Made by a program: the position numbers and the translations under genes
Notes under the pieces: generated by a model
What the model saw: the letters and a program-made list of their open reading frames with translations, nothing else
Told to the model about the DNA's origin: nothing
Databases searched by the model: none
Shown here: positions 1,779 through 60,421 of the stretch, piece after piece
Position numbering within the stretch: position 1 is the first letter of the stretch
Layout: each line of letters starts with the position of its first letter
NCBI RefSeq assembly: GCF_001050475.1
Contig: NZ_CP012034.1
Coordinates: forward strand, 1,054,001-1,118,000
Source of the DNA: Companilactobacillus ginsenosidimutans
GTDB lineage: Bacteria; Bacillota; Bacilli; Lactobacillales; Lactobacillaceae
Length of the DNA stretch: 64,000 bases
Reading direction: 5' to 3'

Positions 1779-1842
1779 TATAAATGTCTCCTTTGCCCTA
1801 AGTCCTTTACGGAGATAGAGATTAATTTACTAACGGTATTAA

Positions 1843-13360: not shown

Positions 13361-13523
13361 CCGATGGAGGGGGAAATCGATTCTTCGGTCTGGAACGCTG
13401 CCGGGATCGTTTGAAGCCATTTCATAGTTCGAAATGTCTCCAAAGCGACCCTTTCACTAAGCTGACTTCGTCAGCAAAGTGAAATTTGGCGGCTGAGACC
13501 GAATCGATTTCCCCCTCCATCTA
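13361..13523 (+). repeat. Palindromic intergenic element, family A copy 1
   Basis: The ends form a perfect 21-bp inverted repeat (13363-13383 with 13501-13521). Inside are a second helix GGTCT/AGACC (13387-13391 with 13496-13500) and GCTGCC/GGCGGC with one G-U. Two hairpins follow: CATTTC/GAAATG within TTTGAAG...CTCCAAA, and TTTCACT..GCTGAC-TTC-GTCAGC..AGTGAAA. It is one of five copies in the window (also 29288, 37664, 49110, 60254), all in the same orientation. It ends CCATCTA like the others and codes for nothing evident. Confidence 0.9.
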
Positions 13524-29287: not shown

Positions 29288-29454
29288 CCGATTCCGAAGT
29301 GAAATCGATTTTCGGGCTGGAACATGGCTGATACATTTGGAGCCTTTTCAAAGTACGAAAAGTCTTCAAACTGCATCTTATTCTAAGCCGAGAAGTTCAC
29401 TCGACTAAGAATTATTTAGTCATTTAGCCCAAATCGATTTCACTTCTCCATCTA
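29288..29454 (+). repeat. Palindromic intergenic element, family A copy 2
   Basis: The outer stem GAAGTGAAATCGATTT (29296-29311) is perfectly complementary to 29431-29446. The second helix is GGGCT/AGCCC (29314-29318 with 29426-29430). Inner hairpins are CTTTTC/GAAAAG within TTTGGAG...CTTCAAA, and a TTCT-AAG..CGAG/CTCG..AAGAA arm. It starts about 15 bp after the hydratase terminator, so it is not needed for termination there. Confidence 0.9.
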
Positions 29455-29753: not shown

Positions 29754-29937
29754 CCAGTCGGAAGGGCTGAGAATATTTACATGCAGTGAAAGTGGTGTTA
29801 TGGCTTCAGCCATTACACCACCGGGCGAGTTTGAAGACTTTCGCGAACTTCGAAAGGCTCCAAACCGAGACCCAAGACCGCACTTCGGCTTGGGTCGTCC
29901 CGCACAGCATGCTAAATATTCTCAGCCCTGCAGACGG
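29754..29937 (+). repeat. Palindromic intergenic element, family B copy 1
   Basis: The outer stem GGGCTGAGAATATTTA (29764-29779) is the exact complement of 29913-29928. Three inner hairpins are visible: GGTGT..ATGGCT-TC-AGCCAT..ACACC (29794-29819), GTTTGAAGACTTTC...GAAAGGCTCCAAAC (29829-29865) and GACCCAAG/CTTGGGTC (29869-29896). This makes a four-way junction. Related copies are at 51778 (inverted) and 52231. It ends 18 bp from the stop of the XRE gene. Confidence 0.88.
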
Positions 29938-29955
29938 CAGTGAACCGCCACCAAA

Positions 29956-35372: not shown

Positions 35373-37646
35373 ATGACTACAAACGACAAAGAACTAGAAC
35401 AAAAAAGAGTCGACGAAGTTGCCGAAATTATCGACAACAAAATTGACAAAGTTAGAGCAGATTTAGCCAAGGCTCACTCTGAAACTGGCAACATTGAACA
35501 AAACTATGGTGAAAATACCAAAGTCAATACATTTGAAGTCGATGACCAAATGGAAACTAACGCTTCTGTCCAGCAACAGAAACAGCTGGTTTATTTAGCC
35601 GTCGAAAATGAAAACATTTTAAATTCTAACGAACAAAAGTTAAAGAATCTCCAAGGATCTCCATATTTTGGACGAATCGATATCGTTGAAGATGGTGAAA
35701 AAGACACTCTTTATATTGGAACTTCAACTCTTCAAGATGAGGATGGAGACTTCTTAATTTACGACTGGCGTGCTCCTATTTCTGGTATTTATTACAACGG
35801 TACACTCGGAAAAGTTTCCTATCCTACTCCGACTGGAAAAGCTGAAGTTGATCTCAAACGAAAGCGTCAATTCCAAATCGTTCACAATAAGATTCGTAAT
35901 ATGTTTGATACCAATGAAACTGTTGGTGATGAAATTCTGCAATCAGTTTTATCCGAATACAGTGACGAATATTTAAAAAGTATCGTTGCCACTATTCAGC
36001 ATGAACAAAATACTATCATTCGTGATATTGATTCAGATGTACTACTTGTTCAAGGGGTAGCCGGAAGTGGTAAAACTTCGGCTATCTTGCAACGGGTCGC
36101 CTTTTTGCTTTATCACAGTCGTTCAAGTTTGAATGCAGACCAAATTATCCTATTTTCACCAAACAAGTTATTTAGTAATTATATTTCTGAAGTCCTTCCT
36201 AGTTTGGGTGAAAGAAATATGCGTCAGGTTACCCTTAATGAATTCATTTCGCTACGTTTAACTGGTATTCAAGTTGAAACCTTGTTTGAACGATATGAAA
36301 AAGATGAGCGCAATCTTCCTCAATCGATGATTGATATTCGTTTATATAAGGAAAGCGCCGAATTCTTAAATGACCTTGAGGCTTTGGAAAACAAAAATAA
36401 AGATCATCTACTTTATTTTGAAGATATTATTTTTGAAGGACGTCCCTTCTTTACCAAAGATGAAATATCTGAAATCTATGAGAAACAAAATAAAGCATTC
36501 AGCATTCCCGATAGATTTTTGAAAACCAAGAATATTCTCATCAAGCGACTTCAAAAACGCATCCATCGTGACCGTGACGATGATTGGGTACAAGCTGAAA
36601 TCGACAACTTATCTGATGAAGATTTCCAACAAATTATTACTGACCACAATATTGAAGAGTCAACTAACCAACGCTCAATTATTGCTGAAGAGTTTTTGAA
36701 GGATCGTTATGCGCCGATCTATAACGCATTAATCAACAATTACTTCTTCAATCCATATGAAGAATATTTGTATTTGCTTAGCCTCATGGATCAAAATATT
36801 GTTTCTAAAGAAATTTGGGACACAATGATTGAAGCAATTGATCATAACGTTGAGGCTCATAAATTAGGATTGAGTGATTCTGTTGCTGTACTTTACTTGC
36901 GCGATTATGTGACTGACAGTGGCTACAATGCTGGAATTCAACACATCTTCATTGATGAAGTTCAAGATTACACTATGGCTCAACTGAAATACATTTCGCA
37001 TGCCTTCCCTGAAGCAAAATTGACACTTTTAGGTGACCGTTCACAGGATGTACTGACTAGTTCATATCGTGATAAAGACTTGGTAACTGCGGTATCAGAT
37101 TTATTTAATAAGAAACGTTTAACGACTATTACTTTGAACCAGAGCTATCGTTCAACTGCAGAGATTACTAATTTTGCGAGCCAACTTTTGCCTGATACTG
37201 AAAAGATTAAAGCTTTCTCACGTCGTGGTGAAAAGCCAGAAATTCATGTTTATGAAAATGAAAATGTTTATTACACTGGATTAAAAGACTGTGCTCGAGA
37301 ACTGAATAAGAAATATGAAACAGTTGCAATTTTGACTAGAAATGAAGCTCAAGCTGAACAAGTTTATGCTCATTATGGCGATGAAGCACAAGTAACTTTG
37401 GTGGATGCAGACTTTAGGTCTGTTCCTAAGGGCATTATTGTGATGCCGATTTATTTAGCCAAAGGATTGGAATTCGATGCTGTTATTGCGCACGATGTTT
37501 CGGCTGATAATTATCCTGATTCTCGTAGTCGCGATACTTTGTATACTATTTGTACTCGAGCTATGCATAGTTTGACGCTTTGTGCGGATAAGGAGTTGTC
37601 CCCTTTAATTCGGTCTCGCGAAACAGCAAAACTACAAACAAACTAA
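35373..37646 (+). CDS. helD: HelD-type UvrD-like helicase / RNA polymerase recycling factor
   Basis: This protein of 757 residues has Walker A GVAGSGKTS (about 227-235), HIFIDEVQDYTMAQ (Walker B, motif II), LTLLGDRSQDV, LNQSYRSTAEI and the C-terminal GIIVMPIYLAKGLEFDAVI. An N-terminal coiled-coil arm and the lack of DNA-helicase accessory domains fit HelD, which removes stalled RNA polymerase from DNA in Gram-positives. The ATG at 35373 follows GAGGT; the frame is open from a TTG at 35352. It is divergent from the trpS leader. A family A element starts 17 bp after its stop. Confidence 0.85.
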   Translation: MTTNDKELEQKRVDEVAEIIDNKIDKVRADLAKAHSETGNIEQNYGENTKVNTFEVDDQMETNASVQQQKQLVYLAVENENILNSNEQKLKNLQGSPYFGRIDIVEDGEKDTLYIGTSTLQDEDGDFLIYDWRAPISGIYYNGTLGKVSYPTPTGKAEVDLKRKRQFQIVHNKIRNMFDTNETVGDEILQSVLSEYSDEYLKSIVATIQHEQNTIIRDIDSDVLLVQGVAGSGKTSAILQRVAFLLYHSRSSLNADQIILFSPNKLFSNYISEVLPSLGERNMRQVTLNEFISLRLTGIQVETLFERYEKDERNLPQSMIDIRLYKESAEFLNDLEALENKNKDHLLYFEDIIFEGRPFFTKDEISEIYEKQNKAFSIPDRFLKTKNILIKRLQKRIHRDRDDDWVQAEIDNLSDEDFQQIITDHNIEESTNQRSIIAEEFLKDRYAPIYNALINNYFFNPYEEYLYLLSLMDQNIVSKEIWDTMIEAIDHNVEAHKLGLSDSVAVLYLRDYVTDSGYNAGIQHIFIDEVQDYTMAQLKYISHAFPEAKLTLLGDRSQDVLTSSYRDKDLVTAVSDLFNKKRLTTITLNQSYRSTAEITNFASQLLPDTEKIKAFSRRGEKPEIHVYENENVYYTGLKDCARELNKKYETVAILTRNEAQAEQVYAHYGDEAQVTLVDADFRSVPKGIIVMPIYLAKGLEFDAVIAHDVSADNYPDSRSRDTLYTICTRAMHSLTLCADKELSPLIRSRETAKLQTN

Positions 37647-37663: not shown

Positions 37664-37828
37664 CCGATTCCGGAAGAAAATCGATTTTATGGCCTGGAAC
37701 GCTGCCGACGCCATTCCAAGGCTTTTCAAAGTACGAAAAGTCTCGGAACTGGGTCTTTTACTAACCGTACTTCGTACGCTAAGTAAAATTTGGCGGCTGA
37801 GGCCAAATCGATTTTCTTCCTCCATCTA
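37664..37828 (+). repeat. Palindromic intergenic element, family A copy 3
   Basis: The outer stem GGAAGAAAATCGATTT (37672-37687) is perfectly complementary to 37805-37820. The second helix is GGCCT/AGGCC (37691-37695 with 37800-37804). Inner hairpins are CTTTTC/GAAAAG and TTTTACT..CGTAC-TTC-GTACG..AGTAAAA. The arms differ from copies 1 and 4 but remain paired. Confidence 0.9.
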
Positions 37829-46014: not shown

Positions 46015-47877
46015 TTAATCTCTTTTACGTCTGATAACAAATGCAAGCCCAGCAGCAAGTGCTAAACCAACAGCTGTCAGAATCAATGAATTTGAGTTAC
46101 TTGTTTGTGGTAATGTACCTTGTTTATTTGAATCTTGATAAGCAACATCAGGCACTAAATCATTACCTGCTTCAGTCTTATCTTTTGAGGTTTCGTTATC
46201 TTTGTTGTCTGTTGGGACATCAATCAAACCAGTATCTCCTTCGCCCTCTTCATCATCAGTTGATTCATCAACATCTGGTTCTTGAACGTCAGGTGTCTCA
46301 ACATCGGGATTCTCTGTGTCAGGTGTTTCTGGTTCCTCTACATCAGGAGTCTCAACATCAGGGTTCTCCGTGTCTGGATTTTCTGGCTCCTCAACGTCAG
46401 GGTTCTCTGTGTCTGGATTTTCTGGCTCTTCAACGTCAGGATTCTCTGTGTCTGGATTTTCTGGCTCTTCAACGTCAGGATTCTCTATATCAGGATTTTC
46501 AGGTTCTTCAGGATCTGGATCTTCTGGTTCAGGCTCCTCAACACTTGGTAACTCTACTTCAGGTAAATCAACATTTGGAAGGTCATAGTCATCTTCCTTA
46601 GTTGTATCTTGAAGATCCCATCTGTGAGTTTCAGCATTAACATTAACTTTGTCGGCAACAATGTTTCCATCTAAATTGTGGTTAACATTAATTGTGGCTT
46701 TTGGTGCAAGAACACTACCTTGAACAACCGCTTCCATATTGATAGTTCCGTGGTATAACTTGTCAGAAGCAGTACTATCAATAAAGTTCCATAGCAAGTG
46801 GTTATCACCAAAGTATTCAGTTTCTTGACTATCTCTGTCAGAACCGTCATCATATTGAATCTTAATTGGTGAATTTACAGAGTAATTAGGATCACCAGCA
46901 GTATCAACATTAATGATAATTGTTGGTCCCTTCTCATCACTGGATACACCCTTAATTTGTAGCGGTGTATTACTCTTCAATACTTCTGGATCCAAGTTTA
47001 AAATAATTTGGTTCTTTTCATTTACAACATAATCAGAAACATCAATAACACGATTATTCATGTCATCAAAATTTGAATTAGTAATAGTTTCGTTAGGTGT
47101 TGGTGCGTTGGCAAAGTTAGTTGACTTGTCAGCCAAATTTTGGAACTCTTTTGCAAAATCAATATAGTAATTACCGTTCTTGTCTTGGTAAGTTTCTGCA
47201 GAAGTCAAGTGGTCTATGTCAGTATTATTAACATTGACACGATTTGGATTACTTACATTAATATTCACGCCTTCACCGAAGATAACTTTGTTAGTTCTAG
47301 TATCACCAGCTGAGACAAAGGAACTGTTAGCAATCTTTGTAATATTTTGGATGTATGAAATCTCTTTATCCAACAATTCCTCGTGAATGTTAGTACCGAA
47401 ATTTACATTACCATCCAAATTTTTAACAGCAAGATTACCATTAGTGTGGGCGTTCAAAGTTGCATCATTTGAGAATATGTGGAAATATGCTGCAACTCCT
47501 AATGGGTTATTTGCTGCATCTGGATAGTCGTCATAAACAGAACCACCATCTGGCACTTCATCGTTTGCGACCGTAGCAACCGGTTGCGTGGAAGCTTGTG
47601 TTTTAGCGACATTTTGTCCTTGAGCGACATTATCAGTATTTTGTGTGCTTGAGTTTGCCTCAACATTCTGAGTTGCATTTTCTACTGTAACTGCAGAATC
47701 GTTATTGGCAGTGGCTGGTTGAACCTCAGCAGTTTTGACATTATCTTGACTAACTTGTCCATCAGTCGTTGTATCAGCTAATGTTGAGTTGGTAACAATC
47801 AAAAATGACAATGCTGCTGCACAAGTAGCAACATTTGAAAGTGCCCATTTTGTTCCTTTAACGTATTTTGAATTCAA
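46015..47877 (-). CDS. LPQTS-anchored surface protein with choice-of-anchor A-like domain
   Basis: This protein of about 620 residues has an N-terminal signal with a YVKGTKW motif resembling the KxYKxGKxW export signal, then a Thr/Gln/Asn-rich stretch. A domain of about 320 residues starting near LGVAAYFHIFSND resembles the choice-of-anchor A (collagen-binding-like) domain. Pro/Glu/Asp repeats (units ENPDVEEPENPDT) follow. The sorting signal is LPQTS, then a hydrophobic segment and RRKRD. AGGGGG seven bases before TTG 47877 favours that start over an ATG at 47895. It is probably a wall-anchored adhesin. Confidence 0.78.
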   Translation of the reverse strand: MNSKYVKGTKWALSNVATCAAALSFLIVTNSTLADTTTDGQVSQDNVKTAEVQPATANNDSAVTVENATQNVEANSSTQNTDNVAQGQNVAKTQASTQPVATVANDEVPDGGSVYDDYPDAANNPLGVAAYFHIFSNDATLNAHTNGNLAVKNLDGNVNFGTNIHEELLDKEISYIQNITKIANSSFVSAGDTRTNKVIFGEGVNINVSNPNRVNVNNTDIDHLTSAETYQDKNGNYYIDFAKEFQNLADKSTNFANAPTPNETITNSNFDDMNNRVIDVSDYVVNEKNQIILNLDPEVLKSNTPLQIKGVSSDEKGPTIIINVDTAGDPNYSVNSPIKIQYDDGSDRDSQETEYFGDNHLLWNFIDSTASDKLYHGTINMEAVVQGSVLAPKATINVNHNLDGNIVADKVNVNAETHRWDLQDTTKEDDYDLPNVDLPEVELPSVEEPEPEDPDPEEPENPDIENPDVEEPENPDTENPDVEEPENPDTENPDVEEPENPDTENPDVETPDVEEPETPDTENPDVETPDVQEPDVDESTDDEEGEGDTGLIDVPTDNKDNETSKDKTEAGNDLVPDVAYQDSNKQGTLPQTSNSNSLILTAVGLALAAGLAFVIRRKRD

Positions 47878-47898
47878 ATTGTAAATCCCCCTCATTCT

Positions 47899-49109: not shown

Positions 49110-49273
49110 CCGATTCCGGAGGAAAATCAATTTTGCGGGCTGGAACGCTGCCGGGACATTTGAAGCTAATTCAAAGATCGAATTATCTCCAAACTGCCCC
49201 TTTCACTAAGCTGACTTCGTCAGCAAAGTGAAACTTGGCGGCTGAGCCCAAATCGATTTTCCTCCTCCATCTA
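49110..49273 (+). repeat. Palindromic intergenic element, family A copy 4
   Basis: The outer stem GGAGGAAAATCAATTT (49118-49133) matches 49250-49265 with a single mismatch. The second helix is GGGCT/AGCCC (49137-49141 with 49245-49249). The inner hairpin TTTCACT..GCTGAC/GTCAGC..AGTGAAA is the same as in copy 1. It lies upstream of the minus-strand reductase gene and downstream of nothing on the plus strand, unlike the others. Confidence 0.9.
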
Positions 49274-51760: not shown

Positions 51761-51777
51761 GATGGGTTTCGGTTTCC

Positions 51778-51961
51778 GTCTCCAGAGATGAGAGGATTAA
51801 CCTGCTATGCGGACCGGACCAAGCCACAGCGCGCGGTCTTGGTCCTCGGTTTGGAGCCTTTCGAAGTTCACGAAAGTCTTCAAACTCGCCCGGTGATGTA
51901 ATATGGCTAAAGCCATAACATCACACTCATAGCTGGTTATCCGCTCATCTCTTCCGACTGA
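51778..51961 (-). repeat. Palindromic intergenic element, family B copy 2 (inverted)
   Basis: AGAGATGAG (51784-51792) pairs with CTCATCTCT (51944-51952), then GGATTAACC with GGTTATCC. Inner hairpins are GGACCAAG/CTTGGTCC (51816-51845), GTTTGGAGCCTTTCG...CGAAAGTCTTCAAAC (51849-51885) and GTGATGT..TATGGCT/AGCCATA..ACATCAC (51893-51924). It is the reverse of copies 1 and 3. Confidence 0.88.
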
Positions 51962-52230: not shown

Positions 52231-52413
52231 CCAGTCGGAGGGTCTGAGAAATTCACCAGCAGTGAAAGTGGCGAAATGGCGACAGCCATTACACCACCGG
52301 GCGAGTTTGAAGACTTTCGTGAACTTCGAAAGGCTCCAAACCGAGGCCAGAGACCGCACTGTGGCTCTGGCCGTCCCGCACAGCAGGTGAACTTTCTCAG
52401 ACCCGCAGACGGC
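52231..52413 (+). repeat. Palindromic intergenic element, family B copy 3
   Basis: The outer stem GGTCTGAGAAA pairs with TTTCTCAGACC, then CACC with GGTG. Inner hairpins are ATGGC..GCCAT with flanking GTGGC/ACCAC, GTTTGAAGACTTTCG/CGAAAGGCTCCAAAC, and GGCCAGAG/CTCTGGCC. The last arm is wholly different from copies 1 and 2 yet still paired. It ends 11 bp from the galR stop. Confidence 0.88.
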
Positions 52414-60253: not shown

Positions 60254-60421
60254 CCGATTCCGGGAGAAAATCGATTCTTTGGCCTGGAACGTAGCTGGGA
60301 CATTTGGAGCCTTTTCAAAGTACGAAAAGTCTTCAAACTGCCCCTTATACTAATCCGAGAAGACCACTCGGCTAAGTATAATTTAGCTACTGAGGCCGAA
60401 TCGATTTTCTCCCTCCATCTA
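60254..60421 (+). repeat. Palindromic intergenic element, family A copy 5
   Basis: The outer stem GGGAGAAAATCGATTC (60262-60277) is perfectly complementary to 60398-60413. The second helix is GGCCT/AGGCC (60281-60285 with 60393-60397). Inner hairpins are CTTTTC/GAAAAG in TTTGGAG...CTTCAAA, and TTATACT..CCGAG/CTCGG..AGTATAA. It begins two bases after the lacM stop. Confidence 0.9.

Follow-up and report, generated by a model that had tools for sequence, protein, structure and literature searches.

The window examined here, a stretch of 64,000 nucleotides of the Companilactobacillus ginsenosidimutans chromosome (NZ_CP012034.1, positions 1,054,001 to 1,118,000), contains eight copies of one folded repeat element. 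Five of these are found on the plus strand where a sequence-only reading of the same DNA had placed them. The first copy (13361–13522) begins 55 bp past the stop of an MscL-like gene (13305), and the third (37664–37827) is 17 bp past a HelD-like gene (stop at 37646). The fifth (60254–60420) follows the lacM stop codon (60251) by 2 bp, as had been noted. The second copy (29288–29453) is the left partner in a convergent pair. The fourth (49110–49272), which served as the query for the first genome searches, is flanked by two minus-strand genes, and the remaining four are 3′ of a plus-strand gene, again as read from the sequence. A covariance model termed R1, whose source alignment contains four of these five copies, matches all five cores on the plus strand (13386–13500, 29313–29430, 37690–37804, 49136–49249 and 60280–60397) with E-values of 7.1e-32 to 4e-25.

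The R1 search also detects three diverged repeats in the window, whose extents were set by eye, and because they share the family the window total is eight. One of these (29755–29939, minus strand; core match 29787–29874) is the right partner of the copy at 29288. The other two form a second convergent pair, with the plus-strand copy at 51776–51959 (core match 51822–51940) on the left and the minus-strand copy at 52232–52413 (core match 52252–52366) on the right; a bidirectional terminator sits between them. A ninth, partial R1 match is the reverse strand of one hairpin of the first copy.

On the 2.59-Mb chromosome as a whole, R1 gives 113 matches at E ≤ 0.01 and 104 at E ≤ 0.001. Own-genome sets made use of 107 of the 113, six short partial matches having been dropped, and 103 are in fetched DNA. 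The single orientation ascribed to the repeats is correct for the five copies but not genome-wide, where both strands carry them. Separate terminators had been said to lie nearby; four of the five copies do have a terminator-like hairpin on their right, at a distance of 54–108 bp, and for the copy at 29288 none was found. That the elements are not plain intrinsic terminators is borne out by the right flanks of 39 copies inspected by eye, in which a T run directly after the hairpin is absent.

None of the elements in the window has an Rfam 15 match at the curated cut-off, and a search with one copy at E up to 10 returned two sub-threshold matches. The window's sole Rfam match at the curated cut-off is an L31-Firmicutes ribosomal protein leader (1788–1820, minus strand). 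There are also 39-bp tandem repeats at 46259–46546, within a long minus-strand open reading frame (46015–47895).

Fold, covariation and arm homogenisation

The five copies fold into the multi-branched shape that had been claimed for them, with energies of −58.7 to −90.2 kcal/mol. An alignment of 39 of 41 own-chromosome matches (two tip-only rows were dropped) displays the anatomy. The tips are asymmetric, with TGCCG on the left and CTR on the right. The outer arm, for example GGAAGGAAAATCGATTT/AAATCGATTTTCCTTCC, has a short internal loop by the tip, and inward of it are a short GGC/GCC-like helix and then a conserved internal loop, CTGGAAC/TGAG. A 6-bp helix is highly variable (GCTGCC/GGCGGC, ATGGCT/AGCCAT, GTGGTG/CACCAC, GTACTG/CAGTAC), and a three-way junction bears two hairpins, the loop of the first being often of the type CAAAGNNCG. 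In the copy at 13361 the tips are the perfect palindromic GATGGAGG/CCTCCATC. A minimal form of about 40 bp, in which the outer arms are joined without the core, is present at L035:1999–2037 (minus strand), and by eye two copies (L255 and L259, own genome 2116875 and 2519690) seemingly have a second palindromic sequence nested in a hairpin.

The helix changes listed in the sequence-only reading are present in the copies, and the covariation it described is strong. This was assessed with 51 rows hand-picked out of 66 cores from this genome and its relatives; 11 further matches were missed by the motif. Both sides vary in 31 of 37 pairs. Paired cells amount to 93.8%, as opposed to 72.2% in shuffles that retain copy relatedness, and double-changed cells number 411 as opposed to 132. 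Neither level was reached in 500 shuffles, and the 'further pair types' statistic was matched or exceeded in 43 of 500. When one arm is slid by 1–3 columns, pairing drops to 31–48%. The existence of a structured, covarying repeat family is confirmed. Certain unpaired features are conserved in the same 51 copies: besides the CTGGAAC/TGAG loop there is a mismatch between columns 33 and 61, which is C.U in 42 copies, and an A.A position in 49. The pair formed by columns 30 and 64 is A.C in 22 copies and G.U in 19.

It had been argued that such compensatory change marks a selected structure. As stated this is unsupported, since G.U pairs are rare and tip arms are homogenised in some copies. Structured RNAs commonly change their pairs by way of G.U. 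On the given strand of the elements, the variable pairs have 31 G.U and 36 A.C in 1549 cells, with 411 double and 12 one-sided changes; on the opposite strand there are 45 G.U and 6 A.C in 1561 cells, with 410 double and 35 one-sided changes. RNase P sequences from 30 of the 36 genomes of the genus, used as a control, have 93 G.U and 1 A.C in 990 cells of variable pairs and, over all pairs, 169 double and 106 one-sided changes. Relative to this RNase P control, G.U pairs are 3–5 times rarer in the elements, a comparison that is only indicative because the element set is more diverged (identity 0.64, versus 0.90 for RNase P in a 21-sequence run) and wobble frequencies are unmatched for divergence. 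By these counts the element helices are more strictly Watson–Crick than those of RNase P, and they have no given-strand preference.

In 6 of the 39 own-genome copies, one tip arm has turned into the complement of the opposite arm, relative to the majority state. The left arm has changed in the 13361 copy, L002 and L022, and the right arm in L007, L023 and L026. Low G.U and tip arm conversion together fit homogenisation of arms at the DNA level, and block changes of this kind are what polymerase template switching between arms would be expected to yield. Yeast data in PMC8604942 describe template switching that homogenises inverted-repeat arms and inverts spacers. Perhaps the element extrudes or turns single-stranded during replication, and one arm then templates the other; switching of this type would homogenise the arms and hold the helices Watson–Crick. 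Covariation can stem from homogenisation of DNA arms, and without G.U tolerance it is by itself no proof of RNA.

Template switching alone would erase mismatches, and therefore does not explain the conserved non-Watson–Crick positions. Conserved unpaired motifs and mismatches that persist across subfamilies would need selection or a binding protein. The opposite-strand surplus of G.U over A.C leaves room for a role of minus-strand RNA or single-stranded DNA and, with the conserved loops and mismatches, may reflect selection on element structure.

Gene placement and convergent pairs

Of 48 own copies placed against open reading frames called by codon usage, 30 have their upstream gene on the same strand and 18 on the other. 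In 16 of them the left end is separated from a gene by 30 bp or less, and what precedes it is then always a same-strand stop; the right end is this close to a gene in only one. Terminator-like hairpins are found within 220 bp to the right of 61 of 103 own copies and to the left of 21. Such placement, like the conservation of the internal loops, is what would be expected of a structured RNA element at mRNA 3′ ends, situated between stop and terminator, which stabilises, processes or regulates the transcript and whose covariation reflects selection on RNA. However, the 18 copies with an opposite-strand upstream gene dispose of a purely 3′-UTR placement as a rule, and in 9 of 16 short convergent pairs the right member is antisense ahead of a plus-strand gene. 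The scarcity of G.U, which on the given strand is no commoner than A.C, and a copy number between 0 and at least 103 among genomes of one genus also speak against an RNA element, which we regard as rather unlikely. The evidence fits mobile DNA with mutually copying halves better than a conserved RNA machine, to judge from sequence.

Neighbouring copies with under 1 kb between them form 16 pairs on the chromosome, every one of them convergent. Over the fetched loci, gaps below 450 bp separate 71 convergent, no divergent and 7 tandem neighbours, some regions being duplicated. Eight of the 16 pairs are set among tandem plus genes, five between convergent genes, two among minus genes and one between divergent genes. 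A composite transposon with a constant interior was rejected, as the spacers of the 16 pairs share only short chance matches. Four wide convergent pairs of 1.6–3.1 kb enclose open reading frames (own genome 1222502–1224103, 1290033–1291735, 2056605–2059711 and 2367983–2370947), and these frames are possible cargo.

Distribution and turnover

The element is present in 34 of 36 genomes of the genus. Within the Lactobacillaceae, the covariance model approach that the earlier reading had suggested finds matches in 84 of 301 genomes and 14 of 40 genera, and in an order-wide draw 12 of 295 genomes match, all 12 of them inside the family. Among the pattern-scan matches listed are the genera Companilactobacillus, Lacticaseibacillus, Levilactobacillus, Pediococcus, Schleiferilactobacillus, Limosilactobacillus and Lactiplantibacillus. 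In the openly licensed papers searched, no description of the repeat was found. A structured repeat with about 100 matches in one chromosome and a presence in 14 Lactobacillaceae genera is without an Rfam match or such a description, and the view that no named family fits still stands.

The repeat is not confined to chromosomes. With the own-species copy as query, plasmid and phage records gave no match; a copy from L. zeae matched four plasmid records and no phage. Plasmid-borne copies are found on two L. paracasei plasmids. In addition, an ISLre2-type insertion sequence (L292:2414–4148 and L293:2413–4152) has a family member downstream of its transposase and is at least 80% covered in two plasmid records; the ISLre2-type element holding a copy is on one plasmid of L. 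brevis and one of L. plantarum. The copies on plasmids and in the ISLre2-type element show that the family is able to travel. The pattern of one subfamily had no match in viral contigs, and the matches listed in a search of plasmids for empty sites were, besides the source records, short or in insertion sequences.

Comparison of related loci reveals turnover. Four related lacLM loci have no counterpart of the copy behind the lacM stop; one of the four carries a copy at another point of that gap. At a locus that we take to be glmM-glmS, the gap contains a pair of copies here, and matching locus DNA is present in all 36 genomes of the genus; in nine relatives for which the gap was fetched, seven have no match, one (G007) has one and another (G004) a weak one (E 0.001). 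Sister loci were compared in 25 hand-picked pairs, some of which cover the same region or form three-species triangles, and six of which have no mapped element. Orientation is the same in all 31 slots filled in both sisters, with repeated regions counted. In 16 of the 31, core identity exceeds flank identity or falls no more than 0.03 short of it, which reads as plain inheritance. In eight others it is more than 0.15 below the flank identity, as in L133/L147 (0.71, flank 0.923) and L085/L192 (0.62, flank 0.863). L133/L147 and L151/L174 differ in presence too, and tip remnants stay in the partner that lacks the element.

The pair from Levilactobacillus zymae (L167) and L. acidifarinae (L240) has core identities of 0.60 and 0.62, compared with 0.904, and these are low because the two copies have swapped places. 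Aligned over the segment, the two species score 42 in the forward and 417 in the reverse direction, so that this convergent pair is apparently an inverted segment. Template switching could invert the DNA between two convergent copies in this way. The middle of the spacer taken alone scores 19 forward and 26 reverse, whereas the spacer pieces adjoining the copies match reversed by eye; since the middle is indecisive, an exchange of copies without inversion may also account for the arrangement. No further pair in the orientation tally, which contains duplicate regions, prefers the reversed alignment.

Partner proteins, flanks and mode of spread

Searches for a protein that might mobilise the repeat were made with the Y1 transposase (PF01797) and reverse transcriptase (PF00078) families, and none was found. 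PF01797 was not detected in six genomes with 93 to at least 103 copies (G016, G032, G012, G014, G042, G007). Four of the six are drafts of 20–100 contigs (G016, G012, G014, G007); G032 consists of one contig and G042 of two. PF00078 is present in 12 of the 36 genomes of the genus, and was not detected in C. ginsenosidimutans or in the same six. The absence of both from several genomes with about 100 copies, four of them drafts, speaks against partners of the RAYT, group II intron or retron kind at the present day, and either protein as a partner is unsupported.

The earlier reading had allowed that a known MITE transposase might explain the termini; in a non-exhaustive search none was found. 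A classical MITE would have ends derived from a DDE insertion sequence and be mobilised by the transposase of that element. The small size, dispersal and palindromic nature of the repeat fit this picture, as do the plasmid copies, the copy within an ISLre2-type insertion sequence and the presence in G042, G094 and G176 of copies with the same arms and equal model scores at several places. However, the asymmetry of the tips (TGCCG and CTR) is unlike that of such an element, and, leaving aside the open reading frames within the four wide convergent pairs, no larger element that combines these ends with a transposase was recognised. Longer direct repeats at the flanks are not in excess, with z −0.5 in one run and z 1.5 in another (9 of 92 copies above z 2), although the local alignments used are blind to target duplications of 2–9 bp. 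The copy-specificity of a G/T-rich direct repeat seen by eye on the right flank was not supported by the test. On balance a classical MITE seems improbable.

A closer likeness, by description, is to EFAR, which in the work of Venditti et al. 2007 is said to be 42–650 bp in length and to insert in stem-loops, keeping half-stems at its ends. The lactobacillus repeat is likewise intergenic, multi-copy and built of stem-loops, and at about 165 bp it is within the 163–170 bp over which the two are alike; it differs in having a three-way junction within the outer stem and in being matched, among the genomes searched, only within the Lactobacillaceae. EFAR is probably the same as Efa-1 of Enterococcus faecalis, given in PMC2267715 as a double hairpin of 163 bp with 65 (18) copies. 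The same paper lists bcr1 of the Bacillus cereus group, 167 bp with 31 (21) copies, for which 'mobile element characteristics' are named in the title of a paper that it cites; bcr1 is of similar size, intergenic and folded, a likeness by description. REP/BIME sequences, with their RAYT (Y1) partners, are also high-copy extragenic palindromes, described in PMC2817692 as paired in alternating orientation; the lactobacillus unit is much longer, and in several genomes with at least 93 copies no Y1 transposase was found.

The flanks were analysed in 92 own copies that have a core above 100 bp and flanks of full length. In a copy-specific manner, the left flank is complementary to the right (z 10.0 over 130 nt), and when the 10 nt beside the arms are removed the inverted similarity is still 26.1 for own flanks versus 22.6 for swapped ones (z 7.7, reached in 0 of 20000). 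Taken one by one, 11 of the 92 copies are each conspicuous as the apex of a degenerate inverted duplication of the flanks, the best being the copy at 2505545 with 82 of 93 aligned bases. In 38 copies at most 35 bp from the stop of a codon-usage open reading frame, where the left flank is mostly coding, the similarity is again present (z 3.9, 8 of 20000); left bases 36–130 alone are not significant in this set (z 1.0, p 0.16). Controls show no such effect, with z −1.1 for 120 terminators taken as apex and z −2.9 for flanks shifted by 130 nt. Among the genomes compared, clear inverted similarity is limited to this one: z is 1.1 in Companilactobacillus relatives (3 of 62 copies), −0.8 in Levilactobacillus (0 of 41) and −0.1 in Pediococcus (1 of 17), and the value of 2.7 in Lacticaseibacillus (3 of 19) possibly comes from longer arms.

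The pairing of the flanks might be the remnant of a target hairpin, if the element inserts into pre-existing stem-loops as EFAR reportedly does. Pairing energies are copy-specific, with −9.98 for own and −7.20 for swapped flanks (sd 0.41, 0 of 20000; z 12.5 in another run). Against this, the similarity runs into the upstream open reading frame in some copies (e.g. 1662976 and 2118917), ordinary terminators on this chromosome lack flanks of this kind, and no empty site was seen that would reveal which came first. Insertion into stem-loops is looked on with considerable doubt. Either insertion or later template switching copied the flank, or the elements seek palindromes; template switching that continued past the tip would write the flank back in the form of a degenerate inverted duplicate. 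The inverted duplications at the flanks put a specific mechanism for insertion or growth within reach of a test.

We consider it probable, with some reserve, that the repeat is a palindromic, non-coding DNA element of the Lactobacillaceae that is mobile or was so until recently, about 165–190 bp in length, similar in kind to EFAR and MITEs and maintained by hairpin-templated copying. The direct basis is a single family with a conserved T-shaped fold, a high copy number that varies strongly with species inside one genus, presence or absence at orthologous places, and convergent pairs. The pairing would be kept at the DNA level by the element itself, and spread would take place via an enzyme or via fold-back copying itself. 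The family is widespread and EFAR-like in kind and, so far as the sequences show, is maintained at the level of DNA. This reading and its rivals are not mutually exclusive, and the likelihoods attached to them need not add up to certainty.

The boldest reading, to which we give little likelihood, is that T-shaped hairpins prime their own copying and need no dedicated transposase in order to spread. A strand, free or nicked, that ends in a hairpin would fold back, prime the copying of adjoining DNA and be joined in, and insertion would then bring an inverted and not a direct target duplication. The same copying would keep the arms alike and make convergent pairs invertible segments. Its support is mainly from this one genome. 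If true, it would define a class of mobile DNA that multiplies through template switching at replication. Parvovirus inverted terminal repeats, with an outer stem and two inner hairpins, offer an analogy to the repeat in shape only, the lactobacillus element being not viral; self-priming hairpin copying of adjoining DNA, as in those repeats, would give inverted duplications.
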